The translations under genes were made by a program, and so were the position numbers. Of a stretch of 64,000 bases of DNA, positions 41,123-64,000 are shown in pieces (positions within the stretch are counted from its first letter, which is position 1; each line of letters begins with the position of its first letter). The notes under the pieces were generated by a model. It had not been told where the DNA came from, made no database searches, and saw only the letters and a program-made list of their open reading frames with translations. The stretch is from Umbilicaria muhlenbergii. Taxonomy: Eukaryota; Ascomycota; Lecanoromycetes; Umbilicariales; Umbilicariaceae. The stretch is taken from the NCBI GenBank assembly GCA_000611775.1, contig KK106984.1, positions 1,022,364 through 1,086,363 on the forward strand, given 5' to 3'.

Positions 41123-41277
41123 TGTTGAATATGCACGCTGTCGGCCTCGACTGTTGTATTTCGGGGTGATTTCGGGGTGGATTTCGGGGTTTAGGCTCCT
41201 TAGCCATGGCCTTATAATTAGGCGAATTCTCCTTTGTTCTAGCAAAATAAGTCTGTCTTTACCGAAAAAATTCAACA
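41123..41277 (+). mobile_element. Solo LTR C (155 bp)
   Basis: Starts TGTTGAA and ends TTCAACA, shares with solo LTR A the block tttcggggtggatttcgggg and the ccatggccttat / gcgaattctcctttgtt stretches. Perfect 5-bp target duplication aaacg at 41118-41122 and 41278-41282. Confidence 0.8.
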
Positions 41278-41790: not shown

Positions 41791-42135
41791 TCATACATCA
41801 AAAACATGATGTTTTTTACAGTAAGTTATAACCTCATTCTGCTGTCTGCCTCCGCCGCTGCCTGCCTCTGCTGCTGCCGCCTTCACCCCTGCTGCCGCTG
41901 CTCCTGCTGCTGCTGCCCCTGTTGCCGCTGCCGCTGCTGCCTTTGCTGTTGCTGCCTTTGCTGTTGCTGCCTTTGCTGTTGCTGCCTTTGCTGTTGCTGC
42001 CTTTGCTGTTGCTGCCTTTGCTGTTGCTACCTTTGCTGTTACTGCCTTTGCTGTTGCTGCCTTTGCTGTTGCTGCTTCTTTTTGCTCACTGTCCTGCTTG
42101 TGAGCATAAGCTAACAGGTTGTAGTCTATCAACAC
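41791..42135. repeat. 15-bp minisatellite with CTG/GCC-rich flank
   Basis: About nine head-to-tail copies of ctttgctgttgctgc at 41938-42075, preceded by a CTG/GCC-rich stretch from about 41850. Read on the minus strand the array encodes a pentapeptide repeat ATAKA within a 114-codon open frame; the plus strand reads as Cys/Leu. I regard it as a repeat, not a proven gene. It is GC-richer than the block around it. Confidence 0.75.
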
Positions 42136-43849
42136 CTCAGTGATGCTTCACTTGATGATAACATCTGGCAGTGCTCCTTCTCCCTCTTCTCTCTACAACA
42201 ACAAGGGTAATCTGCTCACTGACAAGATCATGCTACCTGATGTAGATGATGAGGAGGAGGAGGAAAATGACATCATTATGATGATAAAAAAAGCTCCTGA
42301 GCCTCTCACACCTTAAATCTTCAAGGGAAAGAACAAGTGAAAGTGAGCCTTTACTGCAGTGATCTCAGGCGTGATGCTTGACTGAGCAAGTTCAAAGTCT
42401 CAGAGTGACTTGAAGCATCACTGACTTGCAAGAAACATACTGAGTGAGCTTAATATGTTCTTCTCAGCAGGTAGCAGGTGCTCAGACTGTGTGATTTAAT
42501 CTTATTTGTGTGTAATTCATGAGAGTCACATTAAATGTGTCAGCTGCACAACTCAGGGTGCAAGCTTCTGTGACTGAGTCAATGCAGAAGTCAGCACTCT
42601 CATTGTAAATTAAATGTAAGTATATCCTCTGTTCAATTTGTTTAAAATTAACATTCAGCAGGATCATTTACCCCTGTGTGTCATAAACTGCAACAACTCA
42701 AGCAGCTTTCATTGTGAAGATTCAGCCTTTCATGACAATGAACACTGTTTGACATCCCTCTTTCTGAACATCCCCGTGAGTTAAACCTTTACTGAATGAG
42801 TTTAAACATTCAGATGTTAACTGATCATAGAAATGAGAACTTAGCAGAGATGTTACAAGATGTGAAGGCAGATGTTAATCTCATAACTTTATTAAAAATT
42901 GTGATAAAGGCAATCATTGAGCTGCATGAAGCAACTCATCACATCACAGTATTTTTCACTAATTATTCAAAGAAGAAAGACAGTGAAGTGAAGAAAAAAG
43001 AAAAAGAAAAAGATGAAGATGAAATGATAAAAATGACAATAAAAGAAGAAAAGAAGGTGATGATAAAGAATGAAAAAAAAGCAACAATGCAGAGAAAAAG
43101 TGAAACAATGATGAGAGAGAAAGAGGTGACAGTGAAGGAGAAAAAATAACAATGAGAAAAGAAAAAACAATGATAAAAAAGAAAAAAACAGCAGTGAAGA
43201 GAAAAAAGATGATAATAATGTGAGAGAAGAAAATAATGATTAATTTAATCTTTACTGAGAAGTTCCTTGACAGTTGTGATGTGAACAGAGTTAAATAAAT
43301 TAAACAACATTTCTTTACTCTGTTGATGTCAGATTTACACTTGAATATCAAATTAAATTGAATGATCTAAATAATCTGAACAATGTACTAAACTGAACAA
43401 CTGAATGAGTTAGCGCTGAATGATTGAATGAGTTAGCAGCAATTTAAATTAATGAGTTTAATGTGCACATAAAAACTTTAATCTTCATGCTCTTTCTTTC
43501 TTTTACTCCTTAGACTAGAATTCTTCTCTGTAGCTAAATGTCAGTTGTTAAAACACATGTATTAATTCATAATCTGCATAATCTTGATATTATTTTAATC
43601 TCACTCTTTATCTCCTGCTGTAAGGCAATCTGAATGAATCAGAATCAGAATCAAAACCAGAATTAAAATTAAAATCAAAATCAAAACTCAGTCATAATGA
43701 TCAGAGAAACTGATAATGAAGTTTACTCATGAATTAAAGAGTCTTTGTTGACTTCTGTGAATGATGAACAATTCATCTTGAATGAAAATCTGATCAATCA
43801 GATTCTGATCATCTTGACTGCAGAGATTTTAATCAATCTCTTATAAGAA
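42136..43849. other. AT-rich repeat remnant with purine-strand tract
   Basis: No intact gene. An open frame at 42796-43149 (plus) ends in a Lys/Glu-rich tail caused by a purine-rich tract on the plus strand, about 42965-43240. CpG is scarce throughout, as in the elements that follow. Probably decayed transposon sequence upstream of the gag fragment. Confidence 0.5.
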
Positions 43850-44615
43850 TATCTCTTTAAAGCAATGACTGCTCTTCAACAATTGATCACTGATTATGAG
43901 CAGTCTTTGAATGAAATCAACACTGTTATAAAAGCACATGAAGAACTATAAGTGAATTATGAAAGAACAAAAGACAAGAACAAGAAACTGAAGAAAAAAG
44001 TTACTGAATAAGTTGATGTGATAACATATCTTGAATAAAGAATCACAACCACAAGTACCCCCTGACCTGATTTTCCTCAACTCACAGTTGAAAAATCATT
44101 CAGATTATTAAAGCTCTCTGATTCACTGATGTTCTCAGATGACTGTTCAAAATACAATGAATGAGTAATGAAGATCAAAAACTACCTTTTAACAATGAAT
44201 GAATAATACTTCACTGAACAGATGAAAATAACATATGTGAAAACAAAAGTTGAGGGTGACTCTGTCAAGCACATAAGATCTCAAATGAATTCAGCATCTT
44301 GAACAGCTTATTTAAATGTTATTAAACTGCTAAAACATTTGACCTGAATCTACAGAGACTTAGATCAAAAACATATTATCATTGATGAATTTCACAAGTT
44401 TTATGAAGAATTCAAAGACTTTTCATCCTTTTAAGCTGATTTTCAGTGATATGTTACTGAACTGAATGAGTTTTTTAATTCATACTGAATAGGAGAACTT
44501 CTGAATAAGATGAACAGCATCATTCAATGTGTTAAAAACATGATAAGATTAAGCAACCTACATTAACTTCTGATTAAGTCTAGCGCGTTCAGTTAATTCT
44601 GCAACACTCACATAT
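43850..44615 (+). mobile_element. Ty3/Gypsy gag fragment (host of nested insertion)
   Basis: Plus-strand fragments resemble the fungal Gypsy gag region: a coiled-coil start (YERTKDKNKKLKKKV), then the DSLMFSDDCSKYNE and FHKFYEEFKDFSSF type segments. Broken by many changes. It ends at the target site catat (44611-44615) of the chromovirus that begins at 44616 and should continue after 61401. Oldest layer of the block by position. Confidence 0.65.
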
Positions 44616-44747
44616 TGTAAGGGGCGGGATGTACAACAGAGCGTCATAATGATGTTTGAACAGAGTGTCATAAGCAATATAATCATGATAAGTTAATGCA
44701 ATGGTTATATGTCTTCTATTCAGTTATAAAACTGATCACTGAGGAAG

Positions 44748-45018
44748 TGTAAGGGGCTGGGTGTATGACGGAGCGTCGTAGTGGTGTTTGAACGGGGTGT
44801 CGTAGGCAATATAGTCATGATGAGGTCAATGCAATGGTTATACATCTTCTATTCAGTGGCAAAACTGATCACTGAGGAAGCAGGTTTCTGAACCTCCTTG
44901 TGAAGAGTTTTCACTTGATGCCAAGGCACTAGGCGCTGAGTCATCATATCTATATAATGTTGTATTATAGTGTCGTACTAGTGTCGTACTGTCATACTAT
45001 TATATGGTGGCCCTGACA
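44748..45018 (-). repeat. Copy 1 3' LTR (left)
   Basis: 271 bp, TG...CA ends, the less mutated LTR of the pair: it keeps many CpG sites that are TpG or CpA in the right LTR. Contains TGAGTCA at 44937-44943 and a TATA-like stretch at about 44950. Confidence 0.9.
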
Positions 45019-45499
45019 CAGCATTCCCCTTCTCATGGCGCCGTCCCCGGGGCCAACTGAATGCTCATAAACCTCGTTATGATGTCATAACAGTTGGGGT
45101 TGTAGGGTGGTCACATGAGACTGCACTAGAGTAAGGCTGGCCACGTGCCCTCACTTAATTGTGATGATATCACGCCTGGCAGTAAGTTCTTCTCCATAAC
45201 ATAAACATCAAGATCATGTTTATCATAGGTTCAAAACGCCCTTCCCTTTGTGCTTATTTTTCGTCGTTTGTCTAGTCGTTTGTCTTACGACATGTTGTCA
45301 TACATCCCACGGCTTTTCCGCAGCTCATTGGGTGAGCTGATGACTCCATGGCGTCATCCCTCATTGCAGAGGTGTCCACCTCATGGAGGGAGTGTTGTGG
45401 AGCTTGCAGCTCACGGCTCAACATTCTTGCAGTGTCATACTTCCTGTCGTACATGTATGGATGCTAACATGGTATATAGTCAATCAATATTTGAATGAT

Positions 45500-46560
45500 T
45501 GAACCCACGGCCGTGGACAACGGTGAAGACCCGCCTTCACCAGGGAAGCCTGTTGATCTCCGGGCTCAGTGTGATGAGGAGGGCTCTGGGTCAGAGTTGA
45601 TGAGTGAAACTGTGATGGTCAACACCTCCAGAAAGAGATGAGGAAACAGGGTGATAAAACTGACTGTTCAGCGTCTGAAGAGGGTCAGGCGTCTACCTCT
45701 GAGTGACATCTTCAGCAGCAGTTCCTGCTCTGTGTGGTGTCATGATGATACCTTGCTGCCGGCGCGCGTGCAGCAGGGCCATCATCATGAGCGTGTGATT
45801 TGAGAGAACCTCAGTCACATGTTGTCAGGTACTGCTCACTGTGGCCCTTGCAGAAGGGCTGGAGTTGATCAGTGCTTCATGTCACAGGCTAATTCAGCCT
45901 GCGCTCATTGCACATCACTCTGCAACCCTCATGATCAATGCATGGTGGAGCCTTCAATCATCACTGCCTCAGCCTCTGAAAGCTCTGATGTTGTTGTTCC
46001 ACGCGCGCGTGCTTATGATGGCAGGAGGGGTGATGGCACATCATAATTCTGCCTTTTCTAATCCCCTTTCATTTTGTTTCATTTAGTATGAATATGATGT
46101 ACTTGTTGTACCTATGACATTTTGTCATACTGTTGTACATACAACATTTTGTCATACTGTCATACATACAACATTTTGTTGTACTGCTGTACTGTTGCAC
46201 TGTTGTACTACTGATATGTTAATTGTTGTATAGCATCTGACAGCTGATCAATTCCTCATGTTGCTGCTTCTTATCAGTCACTACTGACATCCTCTGTGCC
46301 CTCTGCAGCTGCTCCTCAACATGAGTTTCTTGACTCCCTTGAGGTTGAAATGTGTTAATTCAGTAGTCCTGAGGAGCTCATTCAAGCTCTTGCTGTCTTG
46401 CTGAAGAGCACTGCTCACGCTCTCTGCATCCTCAACACTCATCAATCTCATCATCACCAAGAGTATATTGAACTCTGTGAGCAGCATCATGTTGAGGAGA
46501 TGAGGTCAGAGGCTTCATCAGACAGTGAAGAAGAGTTTAAGACAGCAGAAGACAAGTAGA
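45500..46560 (+). other. Antisense cysteine-rich reading frame in copy 1
   Basis: On the plus strand, opposite to gag-pol, between integrase/chromodomain and the left LTR. An open frame at 45819-46046 has a cysteine array AHCGPCRRAGVDQC...CAHC...LC...QC, like a zinc-binding module. Further on (to about 46560) is a Glu/Ser-rich tail-like stretch (EEMRSEASSDSEEEF). The same arrangement sits in copy 2 (54156-54374). Treated as part of the fossil element; whether it was ever expressed is unknown. Confidence 0.55.
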
Positions 46561-46830
46561 TAAATGAAAGTGACTTAACATGACACTGATGAAGAGTCAA
46601 GTGAAGGTGTTGATCTCAAGTTCATTTTGATCTTCAGACCTGAAATGAAATGCTTCTGTGCTTAAGTGTTCTCTGCAATGTGACACGTCTGTGATAATGT
46701 AGTTCATGCAGTAATCCTATTAAAGATCCTGTCATAACATCATAACATCATAGCCCCTGTTGTACTTGTTGTAGAGCACAGGCTCTGTCATAAGAGATCA
46801 GATTAACAAAGCTGACAAAGTTTTCAGTTT

Positions 46831-47050
46831 TTAAGGCTCATGACTTTTGTGACAGCTTCTCAATTGATCTCAAAGGGTCACATCTTAAAGCTCATGACTT
46901 TTGTGACAGCCTCTCAATTAATCTCAAAGGGTCACGTCTTAAGGCTCATGGCTTTTGTGACAGTCTCTCAATCAATCTCAAAGGGTCACATCTTAAGGCT
47001 CATGACTTTTGTGACAGCCTCTCAATCAATCTTGAAGAGTCACGTCTTAA
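46831..47050. repeat. 54-bp tandem repeat, ~4 copies (copy 1)
   Basis: Four head-to-tail copies of a 54-bp unit beginning ttaaggctcatgacttttg. Being a multiple of three it keeps one frame over the array. A matching array is at 55141-55360. Confidence 0.85.
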
Positions 47051-48797
47051 AGCTCACCTGAATTTCTGTTTGTCAGAGTTGTCAGCATGAAATTTTCACA
47101 TTTTTGCCTTTGCATTGTGAATGAAGTGTGTTGACTCTCATGTGTCATCTCACACCTGGTCTGTCAACTTTCATTTAATGAGGTATTGAAGCCTGCTGTC
47201 ATGAACATGATTATTCACAATTGCCTCAACTTCTCACTCTTCATCTCAGTTGAGTAGTAGGTCTTTTCCTGTCAATGCAGAGGACACATGACATGTGCCT
47301 CAAAATGACTTTAATAAAGTGATGTTGAATATGTTATAGATGTTTTGATCCTCTGAGAGATCAAGTTCATATGATGATTAACTTATCACACATCATATCA
47401 TGAATGAGCTGAGCTTTTTTCAATGCAGTTTCTTCATCTGATTGTTCAATGACACATTCTTTTCATTAATCAGTATTAAATCACCTTCTTTGAATGTTAT
47501 CTCTGTTCAGTGCTGATTATAATAATTTGCATACATCTCATTAACCTGTCATAGCTGCTCCTGAGCTGTTGCAATTTGATCTTGAAGCTGCTGTGCATCT
47601 GCATAAAGTCTTATTTGTTCATGTGAGTGCTGTATAAACAGCCTACTTAGGCTCATCTGAGGGTCTCATCTTAGATTAAGCTGAAAGGGGCTCTTTCTCA
47701 TAGCAGCATGTATGAAGTTGTTGTATGAGAACTTCACGCAGGGTAAAAGCTTCACTCAGTCCTCTTGCTGCTCATTAATGAATATGTGTAAATACATCTT
47801 CAGGGACTGGTTCTGCCTCTCTGTTTGATCATCAGTTTGCAGGTGGAAAGCTGTTGACATGTTATGACAACATCACATGTGAAAGCAGAAGCTGATTCAC
47901 TGCTCTGATGTAAACAGCTTGTCTCTGTCTGTGATTAAGACTTCTGATACATCATGATGCTTAACTATGTCCTGAATAAACACTTCAATGAAGTCAGCAA
48001 CTGACATTGTCTTCTGTACTGAAATATAATGAGCCATTTTGATCAACTTATCAACTATGACAAGGATTGAATCTCATGTCATACTTTCATACATGCTGTT
48101 CAGTGGCAGATTCATAATGAAGTTCATTGTCATCATATGTCACAGCTCAGTTGAGACTGACAATGAGTTTAATAATCTGTATGATTTGTGATGAGCTGGC
48201 TTCACTTTTTGACATTCAACACAGTCATGACAGTAACGTCGTACGTCTCTGACAGCATCAGGTCAGTCATAAGATCATCACATCAATTCTGCAGTCCTTG
48301 ACTTCCTGAAATGATCTGCAAAGACATCATCATGAAATCAACTGATCACTGCATTGTGAAGGGCAGGGTTCTGCAGAATGTAGACTTTATCATTGTAGTA
48401 TATGACATCCTCAATTTCCTCCCAACGTTTCATTATGTCAGGGAGTATTATCATCATATTTGTCATTTCTGACCCGGCTAAGTTGTTTTTATCCTTGAGA
48501 GGGGTAGCTAATCCCTGTCATACTCATCATACCAAACCATCTTTCAACTGTTCAGTATGAATTGTACATTTGAGTTGTTCAATAAACATTCTTGTATAAG
48601 CTGTTATCTCCTCACCTAGGGGTGAGTGAGTAGACATGAGCTGAAGCGCTTCAACAGTGTCAGCAGAAGGAGCACTATCCTTAATTTAAAGATTAATAAG
48701 AACATGACTTGCATCATCATTTATAATTACAGTGCCTGCTGCACTATCCTTGATTGAGTGCTGCTCAAGTTCTGCATACTTAAGCTTTTTCATTCAG

Positions 48798-49150
48798 TCA
48801 CGGCTTGCTTCTTAAGCATATAGGTCATGGACTGCTGATGTTTCAGTTGTACTGCCGGCTTCAGTATTCATCATACTGATATGTTCATCACGGCTTGCTT
48901 CTCAAGCATGTAGGTCATGAACTGCTGGTGTTTCAGTCATACTGCCAGCTTCAGTATTTGTTGTACTGATATATTCATCACGGCTTGCTTCTTGAGCATG
49001 TAGGTCACGGACTGCTGATGTTTCAGTCATGTCATCAGCTTCAGTATTTGTCATACTGATATATTCATCACGGCTTGCTTCTTGAGCATGTAGGTCACGG
49101 ACTGCTGATGTTTCAGTCATGTCATCAGCTTCAGTATTCATCATACTGAT
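48798..49150 (-). repeat. 90-bp tandem repeat, ~4 copies (copy 1)
   Basis: Unit of 90 bp (30 codons on the minus strand, with the segment AVRDLHAQEASRDEY) lying between the RNase H and integrase regions. Copy 2 has only two units at the matching place. Confidence 0.85.
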
Positions 49151-52100
49151 ATTATTTATTGTGACAGGTACAACATTCTTTTGTTGTAACTCTTGTTGTA
49201 CTGAGCGTCTTGACTGCAGCATCATTGCAGCAAGTGCATATAATTTCTTCTGCATTGACTTATAATCCTTGCTTCCTAAATGAAAGGACTGTCACATTAT
49301 TTCAGTGATGATCAAGGTACTGGCAGCCTTCAGCAGTTCATAATCAGGTCATCTTGACAGACTGTCAGCAGAGTTCTTCTTGCTCTCTTGATATGTGACC
49401 TTAAAATCATACTCAGTGAGCTTTTCAGCCCACTTGAGCTGCCTTCATGTGAGGTTTGAGGTAGTCATAAACCAAACAAGGTTTGCGTGATCAGTTAATA
49501 TGATGATCAGGTGCCTAACGCCTTGACAGTAATGCTGTCAATGATGCATGACTTTCATGATGACAAGGAGCTCTTGCTCACCTGTATCATATCAAGTCTC
49601 AGTATTTAGCAGCTTCTTACTGTAATAAGCAATTGATAATCAGTGCAATTGACTGTCAACCTTGAAGTGTTGCGTCAAGATTTCACCAATTGTGAATTTG
49701 AAGGCGTCCGTTTCAACTCTCATGAGTTTGTTTTCATTGAAATAGCATAGTAATGAAGCACTCATGAAGGTCCCCTTCAGAGCATTAAACACTTTCAATG
49801 CAGCTTCTGAGAGTGAAAAAGAGGCAGGTATGACATTTTCTTGTTGTAGCTTTCCTCTGACTTGCAGGTTACATGTTGAATACTTTGTATTAAATCTTCA
49901 CAATGAGGTCAGGTTATTCTGCTTTCTTTTAATAACAGTCTGTTGAGACTGAAGAGGAGAGGATGATGTATTCTTAATCTTCTTTTTATTCTTTCCTGTT
50001 TACAGGAGATTTAACAGTGGTGCTGCAATTCATGAATAATCTCTTATAAATTTTCAGAAAAAGTTGATGAAGCCTAGAAAGACCTGCAATTCATGAATGT
50101 TCTCTGAGGGTAGTCATTCTTCAACGGCGTGAATACTTTCTGAACTCATATGTATGCCTTCAGTATTGATCTTAAACCTCAGGAAGTTCACTTCTGTTGC
50201 ATTAAAGAAGCATTTGCTGATCTTAAGATGAAGATCATGATGTCATAATGCAGTTAATACTTGTCATACATGCTCCTCATGTTCAGATTCATCTTTGCTG
50301 AAGATCAGGATATCATCTAGATAAATCATGCAGATTATATCAAGGAACTCATCAAGAGCTTTATCAATGAAGGCCTGAAACATAGCAGGAGCATTTGTGA
50401 GACTGAAAAGCATGACAAGATATTTGAACAGGCTGAATCATGTTCAGAATGCTGTTTTCCACTCATCTCCGCCCTTGATTCATATTTGATTATATGCATC
50501 CTTGCAGTTCAGCTTAGCGAACTTCTTAACTCCTTGAAGATGATTCAACATATCTGATATGAGTGATAAGGGATAATGATTTTTAATGATAATGTCATTC
50601 AACCATCTATAGTCAATGACCAGTTGCAGACTTTCATTCAATTTAAGCATAAACATGACAGGTGAAGCTGCAGATGATATTAATTTACAGATTATGCCTG
50701 CCTTCATAACATCATCTAGATATACCTTCAGTACATCAAGCTCAGCTGAGAACATTGAATATAACTTTTTGAATGAAGGTTGCTGCTCTGGTTTCAAGTC
50801 AATGACATGATCATGTGAACCTCTCTCAAGTAGAGACTACTTCTCAGCTGCTTGAAATATGTCTGTGAAGTCATGATATTCAGGAGGTAAACTGTCATAG
50901 ACATTGTCATATTCTTTGTTGTATCACAACAAGTTCATCTGTAGGGTATATTTTTTCATATCAGCCACTAGGTCCGCCGGCCCTATAAAGCAGTTGATAA
51001 TGATGAGGTTGTTCATATGTAAGACATTCTTCAACACCTTCTTTTCATCAGCAGTGAATATATGGCGTGCAGTAGTATGTTTTGACTTTCTTCATAGGAA
51101 TTTACCTGTATCATAGTAGTGATTTGAGTTTGCATGGACTAGAAATGATAGCCTGAGGACAAAAGGAGCTGATGTGTTGTCTTGTGTGACAAAGAAATGA
51201 TTGCTATAGTGGTAGGGTTGACCGTCAATGTCATATGCTGTAATCATCAGTATGACAGACTCTGATAGCTTAATCACATTACCTCATGCATTGCCTTGAG
51301 CCTCATAGGATTCAGTTGATAGGGACAGCTTATTGACAACATCTCATGTGATTGTATTGCCCTGGCTGCTGTTGTTGATAATATATGAATATTTTTTCTT
51401 CAGATCATCCCTTATTGTATGAGAGTTCACCTCTAGCTGCCCTGATATCAGATGTGAGATATCATCAATGATAAATAAGAAGGTGAGCTGAAGGTTAATC
51501 ATGAATCATTTATTCACATCAACTGTGATAATGACTGCTGTTGATCATCCTGTCATACATTCATTTGTTCAATGATCAGTGACTTCACACTTGATACAGA
51601 GGCCTGCTGCTTTTCATGCATTTACTTCATTCTTAGAAATAAAGTCTCCTTGTCAGCATGAGGGTCCTGTGAATGTCTGTGTTGTTGTCATGATCACTTT
51701 CTCCACAACTGGTATGTGATTTGAATTTCAGCTTTGATCACGGCTACTTCCTTGATAAAAGCCTCATGAATTGTTTCCTCTTTCATGATTGAATTGTTGA
51801 GGGTGAGAGGTTTGTTGTTCAGTGAAAGATTCTTTTTTGTCATAGTATGACGTCTGTGTCATACTTTTGTCATTGTTGTCAGTTTTGCTTTGATGATCCT
51901 TTTTGGTGTCTGAGCGGCTTCAGAACAGTTCATGATTGATGATGACATCAAGATGTGCTGAAATTTCCTGCACTGACTGTCTTGCAACCTGCGTCAGATC
52001 TCAATGTCATAGTTCAGTCAGAATGTGATGAGGAAGCCTTGATCATCAATGATCTTGAATGAGCATCTCATCAATTTCCTTGTGTGAAGCTGAAAGGAAG

Positions 52101-52908
52101 CGGTAGAGTTCTGATAATTTATCATATCAGGAGGTGATTATATCATGGCTGCAGGATTCAACTACATTGAAGGTGATGATATTTTATTCATTTGTGTCTT
52201 CATCAGAGAATAGGTTCTTCTCTAGAACCTTTAAAAAGTTGTTGTAAATGACTTAAGTGTGATCATGCTGCTCCTTTTGCTTTCATCAGTCACTCATGAC
52301 TGTTTTCTCAAGGTAGGTGCCTGCTCAGATGATGAAATCTCATTTGATAAGAAATTGCTCTGACATCAGCTCCTGATTTTGATTAATTTCATTCAGGTAT
52401 TCCTGAAGTTTTCATCTCATGACTTTGACGCCTCCTGCATAAAGATGAGGCTCTCATGGCTTTATAAGATGTTGAAAAGGGGGAGGTGTGATATCTGTTG
52501 TAGCTTGATGTTGTAGTTCATGTGATGAACCTGTGTTGTTCCCTGAGTTTGTTGTAGTTGAAAAATCTTCTTACAGATGTTGATTGAGCTCCTGAAGCTC
52601 CCTTTTATTGTCCTCAAACTCAATTTCTTGTTGTACACATCATAACTGTAGTCACTGACGCTTGATGACCTCCTGATTATGAGCAGTGACTGCCTCAAGG
52701 TCTTCAATGATGTCATCAGAGTTGTCTGCAGTGATATGTTCATCATCATCAATGATGTCAGAAGTAGGAGTATTGATGACTGATAATGTAAACCTGCTAA
52801 TTGAAGGGCCTGCCTCAGCTTAATTGTTGACTGTTTCACTGACCTGATGAGATTGAAGCGTTGGTGTCATCATGTCTTATTTGCTTTCAACATGACCGTT
52901 CACCTGAA

Positions 52909-52926
52909 GGTACTGAGTGATCAGTA
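52909..52926 (-). promoter_or_regulatory. Candidate primer-binding site of copy 1
   Basis: Directly next to the 5' LTR. On the minus strand it reads TACTGATCACTCAGTACC. Ten bases (ACTGATCACT) are the exact complement of AGTGATCAGT inside the LTR, and the site does not begin with the TGG usual for tRNA priming. The same 18 bases stand next to the LTR of copy 2 at 61102-61119. This fits self-priming as in Tf1/sushi chromoviruses; inference. Confidence 0.45.
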
Positions 52927-53197
52927 TGTAAGAGGCTGAGTGTATGACAGAGCATCATAATGATGTTTGAATGAAGTGTCATAGACAATATAGTCATGAT
53001 GAGGTCAATGCAATGATTATATGTCTTCTATTCAGTGGCAAAACTGATCACTGAGGAAGCAGGTTTCTGAACCTTCTTGCAAAGAGTTTTCACTTGATGC
53101 CAAGGCACTAGGCGCTGAGTCATCATATCTATATAATGTTGTACTATAGTGTCATACTAGTGTCATACTGTCATATTATTATATGATGACTCTGACA
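52927..53197 (-). repeat. Copy 1 5' LTR (right)
   Basis: 271 bp, collinear with the left LTR, with about 30 differences, all or nearly all transitions. TGAGTCA at 53116-53122. The primer-binding region lies just left of 52927. Confidence 0.9.
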
Positions 53198-54155
53198 AAA
53201 AGCAGGTTTCTGCACCTCCTTGTGAAAAGTTTTCACTTGATGTCAAGGCGCTAGGCGCTGAGTCATCATATTTAATGTCATATCATAGTGTCATATTATA
53301 GTGTTGTATCATAGTGTTGTACTGTCATACTATATATATGATGACTCTGACACAGCATTCTCCTTCTCATGACGTCATCCCTGATGTCAATTGACTTCAA
53401 ATTCATTATCATAGACATCATCATGATGACCTGATAAGTGGTTGATCATGTAGAGTGAGGATGTGAAACTGTGTTAAGGTAAGACTGATCACATGCTTCA
53501 CTTAATTGTGATGATATCACACCTGGCAGTAAGTTCCTTCTAACATAAACATTGAAATTAAAATGTTTACTGTAAATTCAAAACACTCTTCTCTTGTGTT
53601 TCTTCTTCATCATCTCTCTTATGACATGTTGTTGTACTTTTCACAACTTTTTCACAGCTCATTGAGTGACCTGATGACTTCATGATGTCATCCTCATTGC
53701 AGAGGTGTTCATCTTATGAAGAGAGTGTCATGAAGCTTGCAGCTCACAGTTTAACATTCTTACAGTGTCATACTTCCTATCATACATCATATGAATGCTA
53801 ACATGATATATAAGCAATCAATAATTGAACTCTTGAACTCATGATCATGAACAATGATGAAGACTCATCTCTGTCAGGGAAGCTCATCAATCTCTGAGCT
53901 CAGTGTGATGAGGAGAGCTCTGAGTCAGAGTTGATGAGTGAAACTGTGATGATTAACACCTTCAGAAAGAGATGAGGAAACAGAATGATAAAACTGACTG
54001 TTCAGTGCTTGAAGAGGGTCAAGTGTTTATCTTTAAATGACATCTTCAACAGCAGTTTCTGCTCTGTGTGATGTCATGATGATACCTTGCTGCCAGCTCA
54101 TGTGCAGCAGGCTCATCATCATGAGCGTGTGATTTGAGAGAACCTCAGTCACACA

Positions 54156-54374
54156 TTGTCAGGTACTGCTCACTGTGACCTTTGTATAAGAGCTGAAGTT
54201 GATCACTGCTTTGTGTCAGACAGAGAAGCCTGCACATGTTGCATATCTCTCTGCAACCCTCATGAGCAATGCACAGCAGAGCCTCTGATCATCACTGTTC
54301 TTGATTTTAAAAGCTTTGATGTTGTTGTCCTGACACGTGTTTATGATGATCAGAGGGGTGACAGCACATCATAA
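54156..54374 (+). other. Antisense cysteine-rich reading frame in copy 2
   Basis: Counterpart of the frame in copy 1. Every cysteine of the array visible in copy 1 has a cysteine at the same place here (AHCDLC...HC...CTCC...LC...QC), although other residues have changed widely. Confidence 0.5.
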
Positions 54375-55140
54375 GTCTGCCTTTCTTAATTCTCTTTCAT
54401 TTTGTTTTATTTAGTATGAATATGATGTACTTATTATACTTATGACATTTTGTTGTACTGTCATATATACAACATTTTGTCATACTGCTGTACTGTTGCA
54501 CTGTTGTACTATTAATATGTTAATTGTTGTATAGCGCCTGACAGCTGATTAATTCCTCATGTCATCACTTCTTACTGATCACTACTGACATTCTTCATGC
54601 CCTCTGCAGTCACTCCTCAACATGAGTTTCTTGATTCCCTTGAGGTTGAAATGTGTTAATTCAGTAGTCCTGAGAAGCTCATTTAAACTCTTACTGTCTT
54701 GCTGAAAAGCACTGCTCATGCTCTCTGCATCCTCAATGCTCATCAATCTTGTCATCATCAAGAGTATATTGAACTCTGTGAGCAGTGCTGTGTTGAGGAG
54801 ATGAGGTCAGAGGCCTCATCAAACAGCAAAAAAGAATTTAAGACAACAGAAGACAAGTAGATAAATGAAAATAACTTAATGCAGTGTTGATGAGAGGTTG
54901 AGTGCAAGATGTTGATCTTGAGTTCATTTTAATCTTCAGACCTGAAATGAAATGCTTCTGTGTTTAAGTGTTCTCTGCAATGTGACATGTCTGTGATAAT
55001 GTAGTTCATGCAGTAATCCTATTAAAGATCCTGTTGTAATGTTGTAGCATCATAGCGTCATAGCCTCTGTTGTACTTGTCATAAAGCACAGGCTCTGTCA
55101 TAAAAGATTAAGTTAACAAAGCTGACAAAGTTTTCAGTTC

Positions 55141-55360
55141 TTAAGACTCATGACTTTTGTGACAGCTTCTCAATTGACCTTGAAGGGTCACATCTTAAAG
55201 CTCATGACTTTTGTGACAGCTTCTCAATCAACCTTGAAGGGTCATGTCTTAAAGCTCATGACTTTTGTGACAGCTTCTCAATTGATCTCAAAGGATCACA
55301 TCTTAAAGCTCATGACTTTTGTGACAGCTTCTCAATCAATCTTGAAGAATCACATCTTAA
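55141..55360. repeat. 54-bp tandem repeat, ~4 copies (copy 2)
   Basis: Same unit and copy number as at 46831-47050, at the same place in copy 2. Confidence 0.85.
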
Positions 55361-57158
55361 GGCTCATCTGAATTTCTGTTTGTCAAGGTTGTCAGCATGA
55401 AATTTCTGCATTTTTGTCTTTGCATTGCAGATGAAGTGTGTTGACTTTCATGTGTCATCTCACACCTGATTTGTCAACTTTCATTTGATGAGGTATTGAA
55501 GCCTGCTGTCATGAATGCAATTATTCACAATTGCCTCAACTTCTCACTCATCATCTCAGTTGAGTAGTAGGTCTTTTCCTGTTAATGCAGAGAACACATG
55601 ACATGTGTTTTAAAATAACTTCAATAGAGTGATGTTGAATACATTATAAATGTTTCAATCCTCTGAGAGGTCAAGTTTGTATGATGATTAACTTATCACA
55701 CGTCATATCATGAATGAGTTGAGCTTTTTTCAATGCAGTTTCTTCATCTGCTTGTTCACTGACACATTCTTTTCATTAATCAGTATTAAATCACCTTCTT
55801 TGAATGTTATCTCTGTTCAGCGCTGATTATAATAGTTTGCATACATCTCATTAATCTGTTGTAGCTGCTTTTAAGTTGTTGCAATTTGATCTTGAAGCTG
55901 CTGTGCATCTGCATAAGATCTTATTTGTTCATGTGAGTGCTGTATAAGTGACCTACTTAAGCTCATCTGAGGGTCTCACTTTAAATTAAACTGAAAGAGG
56001 CTCTTTCCTGTAGCAGCATGTATGAAGTTGTTGTATGAGAACTTCATGCAAGGTAAAAGCTTCACTCAGTCCTCTTGCTGCTCATTAATGAATATGCATA
56101 AATACATCTTCAGGGACTGATTCTGCCTCTCTGTTTGATCATCAGTTTGCAGGTAAAAAGCTGTTGACATGTTATGATGACATCACATGTGAAAGCAGAA
56201 GCTGATTCACTGTTCTGATGTAAACAGCTTATCTCTGTCTGTGATTAAAACTTTTGACACATCATGATGCTTGATTATGTCCTGAATAAACACTTCAATG
56301 AAGTCAGCAACTGACATTGTCTTCTGTATTGAAATATAATGAGTCATTTTGATCAACTTATCAATTATGATGAGGATTGAATCTCATGTCATACTTTCAT
56401 ATGTGCTGCTCAGTGGCAGGTCCGTAATGAAGTTCATTGTCATCATATGTCATGACACTTTCAGGACTGATAATGAGTTTAATAACTTATATGATTTGTG
56501 ATGAGTTGACTTCACCTTTTGACATTCAACACAGTCATGACAGTAACATCATACATCTCTGACAGTGTCAAGTCAATCATAAGATCATCACATTAATTTT
56601 GTAATTCTTGACTTCTTGAAATGACTTGCAAAAACATCATCATGAAATCAACTGATCACTGCATTGTGAAGAGCAGAGTTCTGTGAAATGTAGACTTTAT
56701 CATTATAATGTATGACATCATCTATTTCTTGTCAACATTTTCATATATCTGACAATATAAATGTCATATTTGACTGCATCTCTGATGTCATGATCATCTC
56801 AGGGTTCATGTTTATATTCATATTTATCATCTCAGACCTGATCAAGTTGTTTTTATCCTCAAGAGGGGTAGTTAATCCCTGTCATACTCATCATATCAAA
56901 TTGTCTTTCAACTGCTCAGTATGAATCACACATTCAAGTTGTTTAATAAACATTCTTATATAAGTTGTTATCTCCTCACCTATTGATGAGTGAGTAGACA
57001 TGAGTTGAAGCGCTTCAACAGTGTCAGCAGAAGCACTATCCTCAATTTAAAGGTTAATAGAAATATAACTTGCATCATTATTCATAACTGCAGTGTCTGT
57101 TGAGTTATTCTTGATTGAGTGCTGCTCAGGTTCTGCATACTTAGATTTTCTCATTCAG

Positions 57159-57340
57159 TCATGACTTGCTTCTTGAGCATGTAGGTCATGAACTGCTGAT
57201 GTTTCAGTTATATCATCAACTTCAGTATTCATTGTATTAATATGTTCATCACGGCTTGCTTCTTGAGCATGTAGGTCATGAACTGCTGATGTTTCAGTCA
57301 TGCTGTCAACTTCAATATTCATCATACTGATATTATTCAT
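57159..57340 (-). repeat. 90-bp tandem repeat, 2 copies (copy 2)
   Basis: Two units of the same 90-bp repeat as at 48798-49150. Confidence 0.85.
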
Positions 57341-60300
57341 TGTGACAGATATGACATTCTTTTGTTGTAACTTCTGTTGTACTGAGCGTCTTGACTGCAG
57401 TGTCATTGCAGCAAGTGTGTATAATTTCTTCTGCACTGACTTATAATCCTTGCTTCCTAAATGAAAGGACTGTTGTATTATTTCAGCAGCAGTCAAGGTA
57501 CTGACAGCTTTCAGCAGTTCATAATCAGATCATCTTGATAAATCATCAGCAGAATTCTTCTTATTCTCTTGATATGTGATCTTAAAATCATACTCAGTGA
57601 GCTTTTCAGCTCACTTGAGCTGCCTTCATGTGAGGTTTAAGATAGTCATAAATCAAACAAGGTTTGCATGATCAGTTAATATGATGATCAGGTGTTTAGC
57701 GCCTTGACAGTAATGCTGTCAATGATGCATGACTTTCATGATGACAAGGAGCTCTTGCTCATCTGTATCATATTAAGTCTCAGTATCTAGCAGCTTCTTG
57801 CTGTAGTAAGTAACTGATAATCAGTGCAATTAACTGTTGATTTTAAAATGTTGCATCAAGATTTTGTTAATTGTGAATTCAGAGGCGTCTGTTTCAACCC
57901 TCATGAGTTTGTTTTCATTGAAATAGTGTAGTAATGAAGCACTCATGAAGGTCTTCTTCAGAGCATTAAATGCTTTCAATGTGACTCCTGAGAATGAAAA
58001 AGAAGCAGGTATGATGTTTTCTTATTGTAACTTTCCTCTGACTTGCAGGTTATGTGCTGAATACTTTGTATTAAATTTTCACAATGAGGTCAAGCTGTTC
58101 TGCTTTCTTTTAATAGCAGTCTGTTGAGACTGAAGAGGAGAGGATGATGTATCTTTAATTTTCTTTTTATTCTTTCCTGTTTTCAGGAGATTTAACAGCA
58201 GTGCTGCAATTCATGAATAATCTCTTATAAACCTTCAGAAGAAGTTAATGAAGCTTAAAAAGATCTGCAATTCATGAATGTTCTCTGAGGGTAATCATTC
58301 TTCAACAGCGTGAATCCTTTCTGAACTCATATGTATGCCTTCAGTATTGATCTTAAACCTCAGGAAGTTCACTTTCATTGTATTAAAAAAGCATTTGCTG
58401 ATCTTAAGATGAAGATCATGATGTTGTAACATAATTAATACTTGTCATACATGCTTCTCATGTTCAGATTCATCTTTGCTGAAGATCAGGATATCATCTA
58501 GATAAATCATGCAGATTATATTAAGAAACTCATCAAGAGTCTTATCAATGAATGCTTGAAACATAGCAGGAGCATTCATGAGACTGAAAAGCATAACAAG
58601 ATATTCAAACAGATTGAATCATGTTCAGAATGCTGTTTTTCACTCATCTTCACCCTTGATTCATATTTAATTATATGCATCCTTGCAGTTCAGCTTAGTG
58701 AACTTCTTAACTCCTTGAAGATGATTCAACATGTCTGATATAAGTGGTAGTGAGTAGTGATTTTTAATGATAATATCATTCAAGCGCTTATAGTCAATGA
58801 CTAATCATAGGCTGCTGTTCAATTTTGATACAAACATAACAGGTAAAGCTGCAGGTGATATTAATTTACAGATTATGTTTATCTTCATAACATCATCTAG
58901 ATATACCTTCAGTACATCAAGCTCAGCCGGGGACATCAAGTATAACTTTTCAAATGAAGGTTGCTGCTCTGATTTCAAGTCAATGACATGATCATGTGAA
59001 TCTCTCTCAAGTAAAAACTGCTTCTCAGCTGCTTGAAATATGTCTGTGAAGTCATGATATTCAGGAGGTAGACTGTCATAGACATTGTTGTACTCTTTAT
59101 TATATCACAACAAGTTCATCTGTAGGGTATATTTTTTCATATCAGTCACTAGGTTCACCGGCCCTATAAAGCAGTCAGTAATGATGAGGTTATTCATATG
59201 TAGAACATTCTTCAACACCTTCTTTTCATCAGCAGTGAATATACAGCATGCAGTAATATGTTTTAGCTTTCTTCATAGGAATTTACTCATATCATAGTAG
59301 TGATTTGAGTTTGCATGAACTAGAAATGATAACCTGAGGACAAAAGGAGCTGATGTGTTGTCTTGTGTGATAAAGAAATGATTGCTATAGTGATAAGGTT
59401 GATCATCAGTGTTGTACACTGTAATCATCAGTACAACAGATTCTGATAGCTCAATCACATTACCTCATGCATTGCCTTGAGCCTCATAGAATTCAGTAAA
59501 TAGAGACAGCTTATTGACAACATCTCATGTGATTGTATTGCCCTGACTGCCGTTGTTGATAATATATGAATATTGTGGAGATTTGCTCATCATATCACTC
59601 ATTGTCATTATGTGCAGTTTCACCTCTAGTTGCCCTGATATCAGACGTGAAATATCATCAATAATCAGTAATGAGGCAAACTGAAGGTGGTTCATGAGTT
59701 ATTTATTCACATTGACTGTGGTGAAGACGGCTGTAGATCATTCAGTCATACAATTATTTATTCAATGACTGATGACTTCACACTTGATACAGAGGCCTGC
59801 TGCTTTTTGTGCATTCACTTCATTCTTAAGAATAAAATCTTCTTGTCAGCATGAGGGTCCTGTGAATGTTTATGTTGTTGTCATGATCACTTTCTCTGCA
59901 ACTGATATGTGATTTGAATTTCAACTTTGATCACGGCTACTTCCTTGATAGAAACCTCATGAATTGTTTTCTCTTTCATGATTGAATTGTTGAGGGTGAG
60001 AGGTTTATTATTCAGTGAAAGATTCTTTTCTGTCATAATATGACATTGATGTCATACTTTTGTTTATGTCATCAATCTTGTTTTAATGATCCTTTTTAGT
60101 GTCTGAACAGCTTCAGAACAGTTCATGATTAATGATGACATCAAGATGTGCTGAAATTTCCTGCACTGACTGTCTTGCAACCTGCGTCAGATCTCAACAT
60201 TGTAGTTTAATCAGAACATGATGAGGAAGCCTTGATCATCAGCAGTCTCAAATGAGCATCTCATTAATTTCCTTGTGTGAAGCTGAAAGGAAGCAGTAGA

Positions 60301-61119
60301 GTTCTGATAATCTGTCATATCAAGAGGTGATTATATCATGATTGTGAGATTCAACTGCATTGAAGGTGATGATATTTCATTCATTTATGTCTTCATCAGG
60401 AGATAAGTTCTTCTCTAGAATCTTTAAAAAGTTGTCATAAATGACTTAAGTATGATCATGCTGCTTTTTTTACTTTCATCAGTCACTCATGCTTGTTTTC
60501 TCAAGGTAGGTGCCTGCTCAGATGATGAAATCTCATTCAGTAAAGAATTGCTCTGACATCAGCTCCTGATTTTGATTGATTTCATTCAAGTATTTTTGAA
60601 GTTTTCATCTCATGACTTTAACACCTCCTGCATAGAGATGAGGCTCTCATGACTTTATAAGATGTTGAAAAGAGGGAGGTGTGATGTCTGTCATAACTCA
60701 ACATCATAATTCATGTGATGAACCTGCATTGTTTCTTGAGTTTATCATAGTTGAAGGACCTTCTTGCAGATGTTGATTAAGCTCTCAGAGCTCTTTTTTA
60801 TTATCCTCAAACTTAATTTCTTATCATACATGTTGTAGTTGTAATCACTGACGCTTGATGACCTCCTGATTATGAGCAGTGACTGCTTCAAAATCTTCAA
60901 TGATGTCATTGAAGTTGCCTGCAGTGATATGTTCATCATCATCAATGATGTCAGAAGTAAAGATATTAATGACTGATAATGTAAACCTGTTAATTGAAGG
61001 GTCTGTCTCAGCTTGATTATCAACTGTTTCACTGACCTGATGAGATCAAAGTGTTGATGTCATTATGTCTTATTTGCTTTCAACATGACCGTTCACCTGA
61101 AGGTACTGAGTGATCAGTA

Positions 61120-61401
61120 TGTAAGAAACAGGATGTATGACAGAGCATTGTAATGATGTTTAAATAAGATGTTGTAGGCAATATAATCATGATAAGTCAA
61201 TGCAATGATTATATGTTTTTTATTCAGTCACAAAACTGATCACTGAGGAAGCAGGTTTCTGCACCTTCTTGTGAAGAGTTTTCACTTGATGTCAAGGCGC
61301 TAAGCGCTGAGTCATCATATTTAATGTCATATCATAGTGTCATACTATAGTGTTGTATCATAGTGTCATACTGTCATACTATATATATGGTGACCCTGAC
61401 A
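61120..61401 (-). repeat. Copy 2 5' LTR (right, whole)
   Basis: 282 bp, TG...CA ends, followed by the target duplication catat. TGAGTCA at 61308-61314. Matches the two halves of the split LTR (44616-44747 and 53203-53352), which also sum to 282 bp. Confidence 0.9.
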
Positions 61402-61406
61402 CATAT

Positions 61407-62320
61407 GTAGTTTTGCTCATCACTTAATGACTTCTTAGAATTAATCTCTTGATCATTATATTTGCATGATGAGCTCTGTATGATCCTGATATTTTAAATT
61501 AGCACTTAATGAGTTTCATACATTGAATGCTCACATTACTCCTCCTCTTCAAAGGCTCATGCCCTCATGAGTATGATGATGTTCACAGTTGCAAGCCTTC
61601 ACTGAGAAGCACTTCACAATGCATCAGTAACAGTAAAAAAAATGACCCTGTAAGTCAGAAAAAAAAATTTAAAATTATAAAAAAAAATATGTTGCAGAGC
61701 TCATTAAAACTCAATGAGAAAAAAAGTCTCTCTTCACAAAATGTTTATAAAATTATGATTGATTTATACACTGACTCAGTGTTCATGATAATTGTTGTTT
61801 ATTTGTGAGACTGTTCAGCTGTTTATGAGGTCATTCAGATTCACTTTGTTAAACATCATGAATGATTTCATGTGAATCATAAGATCAGAGTTTTCACTGT
61901 CAGTAATTTTCACAACTTCAACCCTCTCACCCTTCATCAGATAAGTTCATGATAATGATTCTTATGATGCACTTTTGTGATGTTTACTCTCATGATGCTT
62001 ATCTTCATGATGCTTGCTTTCACAGTGCTTACCTTCATGATGCTTTTTCATTAACAGTGATACAGCTCATTATGCTTCACATTAATCACATCATTAATGT
62101 CCTCAGGTAAATTATCTGTGATTTTCATTTATTTCCTCTGTTCATGCAGGCCTTTAACTCAACCTCACATAATTATACCTTTCATGAGGTAACTCTTCAC
62201 AGGGAGGCTCAGCTTCATGATTATATTATTTCACAACAACTTATGCAGCTCACTGATCATGAGTAAGATCATGAAGTGATTTGTAAATTGTTAAAGCTCT
62301 CACACTATAGTACTAGTGAA
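61407..62320. other. AT-rich remnant right of copy 2
   Basis: Should continue the sequence into which copy 2 inserted. Very AT-rich, with an A-run region near 61640-61690. No coding domain recognised. Confidence 0.4.
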
Positions 62321-62324
62321 GTAT

Positions 62325-64000
62325 GCAGTGTGAGTGTACACATGATACTGCTCACCTTGCTCACCTTGCTCACTAGGTGAGCATGACAAGCATGAAGTGT
62401 TACATCATGTTGCTCACCCTGCTTGATGCAATGAGCATGATGAGCATGCTGAGCACATGAGTCTTCTATAATCTATATAATCACAGGTAGATTTATAGTT
62501 AGAAGCTCATGCTCAACTTATGTATTAAATGCAATCTCTTAAATTTATGACTATTAGTTTCCTCACTTGATCTTAACCTTAAAGTCATATAGTTCATTGA
62601 ACCTTGTCTAGTTCATTGAATCATATCTTGTAGTTCATTGAATGACAGTATTACTTCAGTCATTATGACATCATCTGTTACACTTTGAGCACCTACCTAC
62701 AGGGTATCAGTCATGCAATGAATTGACTCATCAGTCTCAAGATGTTCAAATCCTCTGACAGAGAAGGATCAGTTGCTGAACATCTCTCTGACAAAATAAT
62801 CTGAGTTAAGATCCTGTTATCAGATAAGTTCCTCAGTGAGAGAAGATTATTAAACTTGTTTTTCACTCAGCTTGACATGTACCTGTGATTTAACAAGGCT
62901 TTATTCATTTCAGAATTAAAGAAAGTGTTGTTCACCTTCTCATTCCTGAGGTCAGATGCTTTGAACTGATTTAAACTTATCCTCTGAGATTATCTTGACA
63001 ACAAGACTGAAGATCAGGATGACTTGACTAATGAGATCTTTCATGTATTGAAGAAATTCAAGAAGCAGATAAGGATAATGTTTAAAACAGTTAATGAAGA
63101 GAGAATGATGAAGTGAGAAATCTGCAACATTCAGCAGAAAGAAGCAGCTGCTATGTATGCAGTAAACTTTCAGAGACTCACCTCACATATGAATTGAGAT
63201 GATATTGCTTTGATGATGCAATATTATAAGAGACTGAAGGACGTGATGAAAGATGAAATCTTTAAAACAGAACACCCTGTCATGCTCTTAAAAATGATTG
63301 AATGATCAATCATCATCAACAACTGAGCTTACAAATGAAGTTTAAAAAAGAGTCATAAGATTCTTGTACCTCAAAGGGCTGAGAAGAATCATGAGCGTCA
63401 ATATAATAATCAACTCTACTATGAACCTCAACTCATAAAAATTGATGCTGTTACTTGAGTGAATCAATTTCAGTGAGGGAAAGGACTCAGGAAGAACTCA
63501 GGAAAGAAAAAAAAACCTCACAGAAACAATTATTATAACTGCAGAAAATCAAAACACTTCACTTAAGACTGTTGAAACCCTGAAAAGATCATTCAATCAA
63601 AGAAGACATATGCTGTCATGCAAGAAGTAAAGAGCAAAGATAATCATAATGTTATATCTTGAACAGCATGTTATGATGATGACTGTTGCACACATCAGAG
63701 TGACAAAGATGACTCTGAATGATTTTCATGTCAACTTAAGAGTATAAGAGAATACATCACTGCCTCTCACTTAAATCAAGTTGTGAACTTGAAGAAACAA
63801 CAAACCTGATGAGATTAATTCAATCAAGAAGGCAATTACATTAACAGTGATGAAACAATGCCCTCATCTAGTGAGGAGAAAGATTTCATGAAAGTAACAA
63901 ACTCTGATGACACAGAAGAACTCATCAAGAAGAATGATGATATTTAAGCATTCACTCATGAAGAACAGTGACTGAAAACTTACAAAGAAGTATTTAAAAT
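62325..64000 (+). mobile_element. Ty3/Gypsy element, 5' part (runs off the window)
   Basis: A likely 5' LTR from about 62330 to 62683 (tgtgagtg...ctgttaca, with tatataatc near 62474), ends not proven. From about 62700 a plus-strand gag follows: KVLFTFSFLRSDALN, EDQDDLTNEIFHVLKKFKKQ, QQKEAAAMYAVNFQRLTSH and MMQYYKRLKDVMKDEIFK type segments, then a zinc-knuckle remnant near 63535-63580. Broken by many changes; CpG-poor like the others. A different Gypsy lineage from the chromovirus pair, judging from gag. Confidence 0.7.

Follow-up and report, generated by a model that had tools for sequence, protein, structure and literature searches.

In the window, which here means the whole stretch of 64,000 nucleotides from Umbilicaria muhlenbergii that was analysed, 42 kb of genes with a normal composition lie beside a block of mutated repeats (42136-64000). 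The question raised by this locus is which process mutated the block and how it chooses its cytosines. A first-pass annotation had read the block as repeat-directed C-to-T mutation that spares CpA, the reverse of Neurospora-type RIP, and had offered two causes, a different deaminase/methyltransferase specificity or CpG methylation decay plus a second process.

Elements and composition of the block

The features of the block are listed in Table 1. The genic part (1-42000) has a GC content of 0.509, a CpG observed/expected ratio of 0.85, a TpA/ApT index of 0.67 and a (CpA+TpG)/(ApC+GpT) index of 1.33. For the block, the GC content is 0.369, the observed/expected ratios are 0.16 for CpG, 0.56 for CpC, 1.57 for CpA and 0.59 for TpA, and the two indices are 0.56 and 1.71. 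Word counts, which need no alignment, gave for the elements 0.03 (CGA/TCG), 0.20 (CCA/TGG) and 2.05 (TCA/TGA) times the genic observed/expected ratio, in agreement with the earlier description of the block as poor in CpG and full of TCA and TGA. Genic DNA has on average 33 targets of the type C-S-A (S being G or C) per 500 bp and never fewer than 7; of the 34 element windows of this size, 31 have 0-5. The loss of targets from the elements is nearly complete.

Table 1. Features of the mutated block, in coordinates of the window
Feature	Position	Strand	Basis or remark
Further high-copy repeats, heavily mutated	42136..44615	.	Repeat matches, composition, word counts
Copy 2 LTR, left half, split by copy 1	44616..44747	.	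Self-BLAST
Copy 1, left target-site duplication GGAAG	44743..44747	.	Read from sequence
Copy 1, LTR retroelement	44748..53197	-	Self-BLAST, LTR ends and duplications, target counts; strand from RT match
Copy 1 LTRs, TG...CA ends	44748-45018 and 52927-53197		Part of copy 1
Spared tract inside copy 1	45001..46000	.	Target counts per 500 bp; query 45050-45850
Reverse-transcriptase remnant (RVT_1, PF00078, Ty3/Gypsy-type)	50171..50620	-	PF00078 profile search of the genome
Copy 1, right target-site duplication AAAAG	53198..53202	.	Read from sequence
Copy 2 remainder (older host element)	53203..61403	-	Self-BLAST; strand by homology with copy 1
Parts of copy 2: right half of split LTR, then interior, then far LTR	up to 53354; far LTR 61120-61403		Part of copy 2
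Second high-copy repeat family	61404..64000	.	Repeat matches, contexts, composition

The two target-site duplications of copy 1 differ by two G-to-A changes in the right one, and its reverse-transcriptase remnant contains five in-frame TGA codons and no TAG or TAA. Target-site counts per 500 bp place the hypermutated part of copy 1 from about 46001 rightwards, with 1-5 targets in each of the 14 windows of 46001-53000 versus 25 and 12 in the two windows of the spared tract. A lack of repeat partners does not explain the sparing: most of this kilobase is multicopy, its segment 45050-45850 having at least 40 long matches (itself included) among those listed, so repetition alone does not decide where mutation falls. 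The flanking repeats are strongly depleted in CpG, with observed/expected ratios of 0.08 over 42136-44600 and 0.03 over 61400-64000. A query from the left flank (42300-44300) gave 45 matches from 40 scored candidates, mostly in its right half, and a query from the second family (61700-63500) gave 49 matches from 40 scored candidates, mostly in its right two thirds.

Target context of the mutations

The two LTRs of copy 1 differ at 25 positions, all transitions. When only cytosines whose 3' neighbour is the same in the two LTRs are counted, C/T differences occur at 7/9 CpG, 10/19 CpC, 3/34 CpT and 0/43 CpA of the sites available, close to the hand counts of the first-pass annotation (about 9, about 11, 3 and 0). 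As it had also remarked, a few CpA changes do appear in the older copy 2, in the left half of its split LTR (5/22) and not in the right (0/28).

The comparison was extended to a single family of Ty3-type retroelements, in which 26 LTR pairs were tried and 20 were usable, with 5331 aligned bases. These 20 pairs contain 361 transitions and 2 transversions, and for 356 of the 361 difference columns the C/G state was found in other elements. Per available site, 73/175 CpG, 72/311 CpC, 74/670 CpT and 17/830 CpA were changed. CpA was thus the least changed class, with 17 changes observed against 98.6 expected from site abundance (Fisher p = 3e-36, a nominal value that assumes independent sites, while LTR pairs of one family share sites). 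Neither of the two outcomes that the first-pass annotation had named as fatal to its reading, CpA as the main context or CpA changing as its abundance predicts, was observed in these 20 pairs. Both strands were mutated (140 C/T and 221 G/A differences); strand coherence, which is typical of RIP tracts, was weak (p = 0.04).

The base at +2 matters as much as the one at +1. Within CpG, 36/43 CGA, 24/42 CGT, 8/71 CGC and 1/10 CGG sites were changed, within CpC 41/80 CCA and 23/163 CCT, within CpT 54/207 CTA and 3/175 CTG, and within CpA 9/159 CAA and 0/172 CAG. The odds ratio for A at +2 was 14.0 in CpG, 6.9 in CpC, 9.6 in CpT and 9.3 in CpA (pooled 9.2), homogeneous over the four classes (Breslow-Day p = 0.63). 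C-[G or C]-A is hit most readily and becomes TGA or TCA; the rule is one of trinucleotides, half of it absent from the earlier account. In an alignment of 30 internal copies, the mean T fraction by column was 0.49 for CpG, 0.35 for CpC, 0.15 for CpT and 0.09 for CpA, and was highest with A at +2 inside every class. No preference for T at -1 was seen at CpG in these copies, TCG having the lowest mean T fraction of the four (0.39) and ACG 0.57.

Copy 1 and copy 2, which are separated by older changes as well, differ by 859 transitions and 80 transversions, with 64/295 CAA and 4/286 CAG sites changed. The sparing of CpA therefore holds in a relative sense only, since CAA is changed in older copies and CAG hardly at all.

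The observation extends well past the window. In five copies of the second repeat family the context order is the same (CpG 15/21, CpC 80/236, CpT 225/1160, CpA 140/1082), with an odds ratio of 3.3 for A at +2 and a weaker sparing of CpA (0.129 versus 0.194 for CpT), so that the proposed contrast to Neurospora RIP recurs there less sharply than in the Ty3-type family. Among 205 scored reverse-transcriptase domain matches, 1135 stop codons were counted, namely 913 TGA, 203 TAA and 19 TAG, where equal contexts predict shares of about 0.32, 0.23 and 0.45. Repeat-directedness was judged from the repeat families examined and the single 42 kb genic stretch. Not all duplicates are targets: a DNMT5-like gene has an old, diverged duplicate, 79% identical over 947 aligned bases, in which hypermutation is absent; the two differ by 121 transitions and 55 transversions, with changes at 14/141 CpA and 20/106 CpG sites.

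Candidate enzymes and competing explanations

Three candidate methyltransferase genes were found in the genome. One is DIM-2-like (9bap is the solved structure closest to it, at 581 bits) and one DNMT5-like (closest solved structure 7r76, 219 bits); a third, with a DNA_methylase domain only, we take to be RID-like from its domain content. The search for RID and Dim-2 genes suggested with the first annotation found a candidate of each kind. A search with the DNMT1-RFD domain matched neither this genome nor any control genome. A review (PMC13297926) states that purified RID lacks methyltransferase activity and that in Neurospora DIM-2 favours CpT, which counts against the enzyme proposed below.

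The block is likely to be repeated DNA that was hit by an active, repeat-directed, RIP-like C-to-T mutator with a different target rule, probably a RID- or DIM-2-like methyltransferase. Such a mutator would read two bases 3' of the cytosine, with the order G > C > T > A at +1 and preferably A at +2, and would attack CGA and CCA first, then CTA and CGT, then CAA, on both strands and in bursts. A C5-DNA methyltransferase of RID or DIM-2 type, reading its target unlike Neurospora RIP, would act first and deamination would follow. Three parts of this scheme are inferred: which enzyme acts (guessed from the genes present), when it acts (before meiosis or otherwise) and how repeats are sensed. For the narrower proposal of a RIP enzyme of either type with shifted target reading, in which G or C at +1 and A at +2 replace A at +1, the chances appear even. 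If true, it would be a trinucleotide-specific (C-S-A) genome-defence mutator that clears nearly all its targets from transposons and kills reading frames mainly via TGA, and to which CpA-based RIP surveys are blind.

The scarcity of transversions, the mutation of both strands and the one common +2 effect argue against slow CpG-methylation decay, two separate processes and deamination coupled to reverse transcription. Of the two causes first offered, an altered enzyme specificity is accordingly favoured; the other, decay at methylated CpG joined by a further process, fits poorly with 361 transitions to 2 transversions and a single effect of A at +2 in all CpN classes.

Passive decay of 5-methylcytosine, with DNMT5 (CpG) and DIM-2 (other contexts) methylating the repeats, is unlikely, although it has several points in its favour: genes like both are present, CpG is the most mutated dinucleotide, CpG signatures have been ascribed to methylation and deamination (PMC4352252), and in Zymoseptoria CG methylation prefers CGA among others, with and without dim2, while CC is second to CA in CHH methylation (PMC8016269). 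The main CHG site there is CAG, however, and CT is almost unmethylated (PMC8016269), which differs from the pattern here. Change is not restricted to CpG, and methylation of CpG gives no account of CCA being changed more often than CGC and CGG, nor of an effect of A at +2 common to all classes or of the sharp boundary within copy 1. The CpG change per site (73/175) is more than 1000 times the transversion rate (2/5331), whereas the mutation excess of methyl-CpG elsewhere is tens-fold.

Somewhat less probable still is a chance overlap, in the repeats, of two separate processes, one for CpG and one for CpC and CpT. CpG does have the highest rate, and the +2 effect is not uniform in every cell, CGT being high (24/42) and CCT low (23/163), but the equal odds ratios over the CpN classes are most simply explained by one enzyme that reads +1 and +2 independently.

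An APOBEC-like deaminase acting on retroelement cDNA is very improbable and was rejected: those damaged elements to which a class could be assigned are retroelements, but change is not confined to one strand, and differences between the two LTRs of a single inserted copy arose after integration. Classical RIP with CpA exhausted, where saturation would leave few CpA differences, can be dismissed on composition, as CpA is the commonest remaining class in the LTR pairs (830 sites) and the CpA excess and TpA deficit of the block are the opposite of what exhaustion predicts.

Comparison with known systems

The altered RIP-like mutator favoured here was compared with other fungal systems. In the literature searched, which included few subscription papers, no RIP preferring CpC or C-S-A was found, the nearest case being the CpC-dense SNPs of Rhizoctonia solani (PMC4014442). 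In R. solani AG8, the mean spacing of inter-nuclear C/T SNPs is 214 bp for CpC, 370 for CpG, 422 for CpA and 491 for CpT (PMC4014442), a precedent for CpC over CpA; there, however, genes and repeats are mutated alike and the authors speak of a CpG bias, and in the passage concerned the densities are not normalised by site number and a +2 effect does not figure. Strong mutation of CpG is shared with basidiomycetes, whose hypermutation is CpG-biased (TpCpG in Microbotryum), and with Tuber, which has a CpG signature (PMC2621366, PMC4352252, PMC4014442); here CCA, CTA and CCT are mutated too, and the effect lies at +2 and not in the T at -1 that marks the TpCpG hypermutation of Pucciniomycotina.

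Among ascomycetes the context of RIP varies. Coccidioides, as cited in PMC4014442, has repeat-associated mutation biased to CpG and not CpA; mixed CpA/CpG or CpA/CpT signatures are given for Aspergillus, Botrytis and Magnaporthe, and CpC and CpG are lost too from repeats of Stagonospora nodorum (PMC4352252, PMC2621366). In these last four, unlike here, CpA is the main or second target, and S. nodorum gains only TpA. The dim2-dependent mitotic mutator of Zymoseptoria tritici likewise links a methyltransferase to C-to-T change in repeats, but is CpA-specific (PMC8016269).

RIP-like defences have been concluded to share a CpA preference (PMC12543289), as found in Neurospora (PMC12543289, PMC8016269). 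The block resembles Neurospora-type RIP in C-to-T change on both strands of repeats, almost to the exclusion of other changes, in AT-rich blocks, in the normal composition of the 42 kb of genes beside them and in the presence of RID- and DIM-2-like genes, and differs from it in that CpA is changed least and the +2 base counts too. If specificity has changed in nature in this way, the three methyltransferases at hand as candidates make it testable which protein picks the mutated cytosine and via which contacts. The scar is very clear, yet it goes undetected by the usual index tests: the 42 one-kb windows of the block all fail each of the three thresholds given in PMC7882544, whose indices look for loss of CpA and gain of TpA. 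RIP may thus be wider and more varied than has been counted.

Layout of the mutated block

The window is part of contig C4 in a genome of 34.79 Mb and 7 contigs; its genes, which include a lovastatin-type PKS, Nup120 and Trs65, suggest a filamentous fungus. From about 42.1 kb of the window, GC content falls from 0.51 to 0.37, and in this AT-rich block one LTR retroelement is present twice. Copy 1 was found within one LTR of copy 2; even its 5-bp duplication carries G-to-A differences, being GGAAG on the left side but AAAAG on the right. The family has many copies and occurs on all seven contigs, with 42 matches to an LTR query (40 scored candidates of 397) and 41 to an interior query (40 scored candidates of 230). 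The stretches flanking the elements are other high-copy repeats.

Tandem units in the retroelement vary in number between copies. A CTG-rich array lies where the gene-rich part passes into the mutated block, and polyketide synthase gene pieces, with a P450 and an MFS transporter near them, lie about 10 kb from the block.

Features of the window (window positions)
Feature	Position	Strand	Remarks
Copy 1, LTR retroelement	44748-53197		TG...CA LTRs, 271 nt each
Copy 2 LTR, split by copy 1	44616-44747 + 53203-53354		two halves
Copy 2 far LTR	61120-61403
Reverse-transcriptase remnant, RVT_1 (Ty3) kind	50171-50620	minus	five TGA stops
Spared tract, left end of copy 1	45001-46000
Tandem units	46676-47083, 55040-55393, 48793-49152		~54 bp and ~90 bp
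Tandem array	41847-42086		15-bp unit, CTG-rich
97-bp repeat	36410-36506, 41148-41244		90% identical
Polyketide synthase pieces	27066-32024		KS, AT, DH, methyltransferase
P450	33699-35279
MFS transporter	38900-39793

Sequence context of the C-to-T changes

Between the LTRs of copy 1, 25 transitions and no transversions were counted, with C/T differences at 7/9 CpG, 10/19 CpC, 3/34 CpT and 0/43 CpA sites. This is close to the hand count of the first-pass annotation, which had proposed that repeats undergo C-to-T mutation sparing CpA. In total 26 LTR pairs were tried, seven from paired LTR matches (copy 1 included) and 19 from the better of 41 interior matches, so that the sample favours copies resembling copy 1; six were excluded, four because no LTR could be recognised where one was expected and two because it was short. 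The 20 pairs used (5331 aligned bases) showed 361 transitions and 2 transversions, and changes at 73/175 CpG, 72/311 CpC, 74/670 CpT and 17/830 CpA sites. CpA sparing thus held, 98.6 changes being expected from site abundance. The C/G state was present in other elements at 356 of the 361 difference columns; the direction is therefore C to T, on both strands (140 C/T, 221 G/A).

The base at +2, two positions 3' of the mutated C, is the half of the target rule that the first-pass annotation missed. In the 20 pairs, changes were found at CGA 36/43, CGT 24/42, CGC 8/71 and CGG 1/10; at CCA 41/80, CCT 23/163, CCC 3/32 and CCG 1/10; at CTA 54/207 against 16/449 for the remaining CTN; and at CAA 9/159 against 4/624 for the remaining CAN (CAG 0/172). 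A at +2 raised the odds of change in each class (odds ratio 14.0 in CpG, 6.9 in CpC, 9.6 in CpT and 9.3 in CpA; pooled 9.2), with no difference seen among the four classes (Breslow-Day p = 0.63; p values are nominal, as copies of one family share sites). Thirty internal copies of about 4.5 kb each, scored column by column, gave mean T fractions of 0.49, 0.35, 0.15 and 0.09 for G, C, T and A at +1, and A at +2 was highest in every class (CGA 0.69, CCA 0.74, CTA 0.37, CAA 0.17); one poorly aligned row (identity 0.69 to the first row) was retained. A second repeat family, compared as 10 non-independent pairs among the window copy and four others, had 859 transitions and 22 transversions, with CpG 15/21, CpC 80/236, CpT 225/1160 and CpA 140/1082, and 135/394 with A at +2 vs 249/1822 otherwise.

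Copy 1 and copy 2 differ by 859 transitions and 80 transversions, with changes at CGA 6/6, CCA 49/51, CTA 51/108, CAA 64/295 and CAG 4/286. Targets seem to be consumed in order, with CAA late, which accounts both for the TGA/TCA richness of the repeats and for the few CpA changes in older DNA. Both had been remarked on earlier, and both were recovered here, the former in alignment-free word counts (CGA/TCG 0.03, CCA/TGG 0.20 and TCA/TGA 2.05 of genic observed/expected in the elements). In the flanking repeats CGA/TCG was absent (n = 0) and CCA/TGG remained three times.

Stop codons in reverse-transcriptase matches numbered TGA 682, TAA 106 and TAG 15 for RVT_1 (150 scored matches of 877 candidates, some being copies of the window's own family) and TGA 231, TAA 97 and TAG 4 for RVT_2 (55 matches); 3 of the 205 matches had no stop. 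Given the codons available in ten open frames of window genes, equal contexts would give TGA 0.32, TAG 0.45 and TAA 0.23. TAG, which has to arise from CAG or through the second base of TGG (a CpA context in either case), is almost never made.

Other readings were rejected or judged unlikely. CpG methylation as the cause leaves the CCA rate above that of CGC unexplained. Slow loss of methylated C should be accompanied by other mutations, but only 2 transversions in 5331 bases stand beside 73/175 changed CpG sites, which looks like a burst. Deamination coupled to reverse transcription is single-stranded and precedes insertion, whereas here the two LTRs of a single inserted copy differ from each other, with both strands affected. 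Classical RIP with CpA exhausted would give low CpA and high TpA; the block has 1.57 and 0.59 of expectation.

Spared tract and candidate methyltransferase genes

Of 34 element windows of 500 bp, 31 contained 0-5 C-S-A targets (C, then G or C, then A), the genic mean being 33 and the genic minimum 7. The spared tract of copy 1, itself multicopy, holds 25 and 12, the 500-bp window just before it 10, and a sharp border at ~46.0 kb separates spared from saturated sequence within this one copy. The 97-bp repeat of the gene-rich part retains several CpG sites; it may be shorter than any length threshold for mutation.

The DIM-2-like gene L001 has DNA_methylase and DUF7893 domains over the cut-off and BAH just below it (30.3 vs 30.8 bits); its best solved relative is 9bap (581 bits), which we take to be Neurospora DIM-2. 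DNA_methylase is the sole domain of L002, presumably RID-like, whose solved relatives are weak. The DNMT5-like L003 carries DNA_methylase, and its best solved relative, 7r76 (219 bits), is deposited as DNA repair protein Rad8 and is presumably Cryptococcus DNMT5. From gene content, we infer that the RID-like or the DIM-2-like enzyme would cause the mutation, its recognition of the bases 3' of the target having changed. Against such a mutator stands L004 (G000:C1:6525876-6529178), a decayed partial duplicate of L003 that is 79% identical over 947 aligned bases and diverged in that alignment without transposon-type hypermutation. Against a RID-like enzyme, purified RID is reportedly inactive, according to an excerpted review (PMC13297926).

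Comparison with known systems

In the available excerpts of PMC4352252, PMC2621366, PMC4014442 and PMC8016269, the context is CpA in Neurospora and most ascomycetes and CpA plus CpT or CpG in other ascomycetes; basidiomycetes show CpG or TpCpG, and Tuber shows CpG. RIP-like defences are concluded to have a CpA preference in common (PMC12543289, in part). Near precedents in these excerpts are R. solani, where CpC is the densest class in a SNP table (PMC4014442), and Zymoseptoria methylation, whose preferred CG sites include CGA but whose leading CHG site is CAG (PMC8016269). With thresholds for three RIP indices as excerpted from PMC7882544, 0/42 block windows passed any index; at the 30 internal loci, 0/214 windows passed all three and 1/214 passed any. 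Bursts, tracts, action on both strands and transitions are hallmarks of RIP, as is mutation of repeats with sparing of genes, which is the picture in the named repeat families and 42 kb of genes. The process appears to work like RIP, but CpA, the preferred target of classical RIP, is the class that it hits least.
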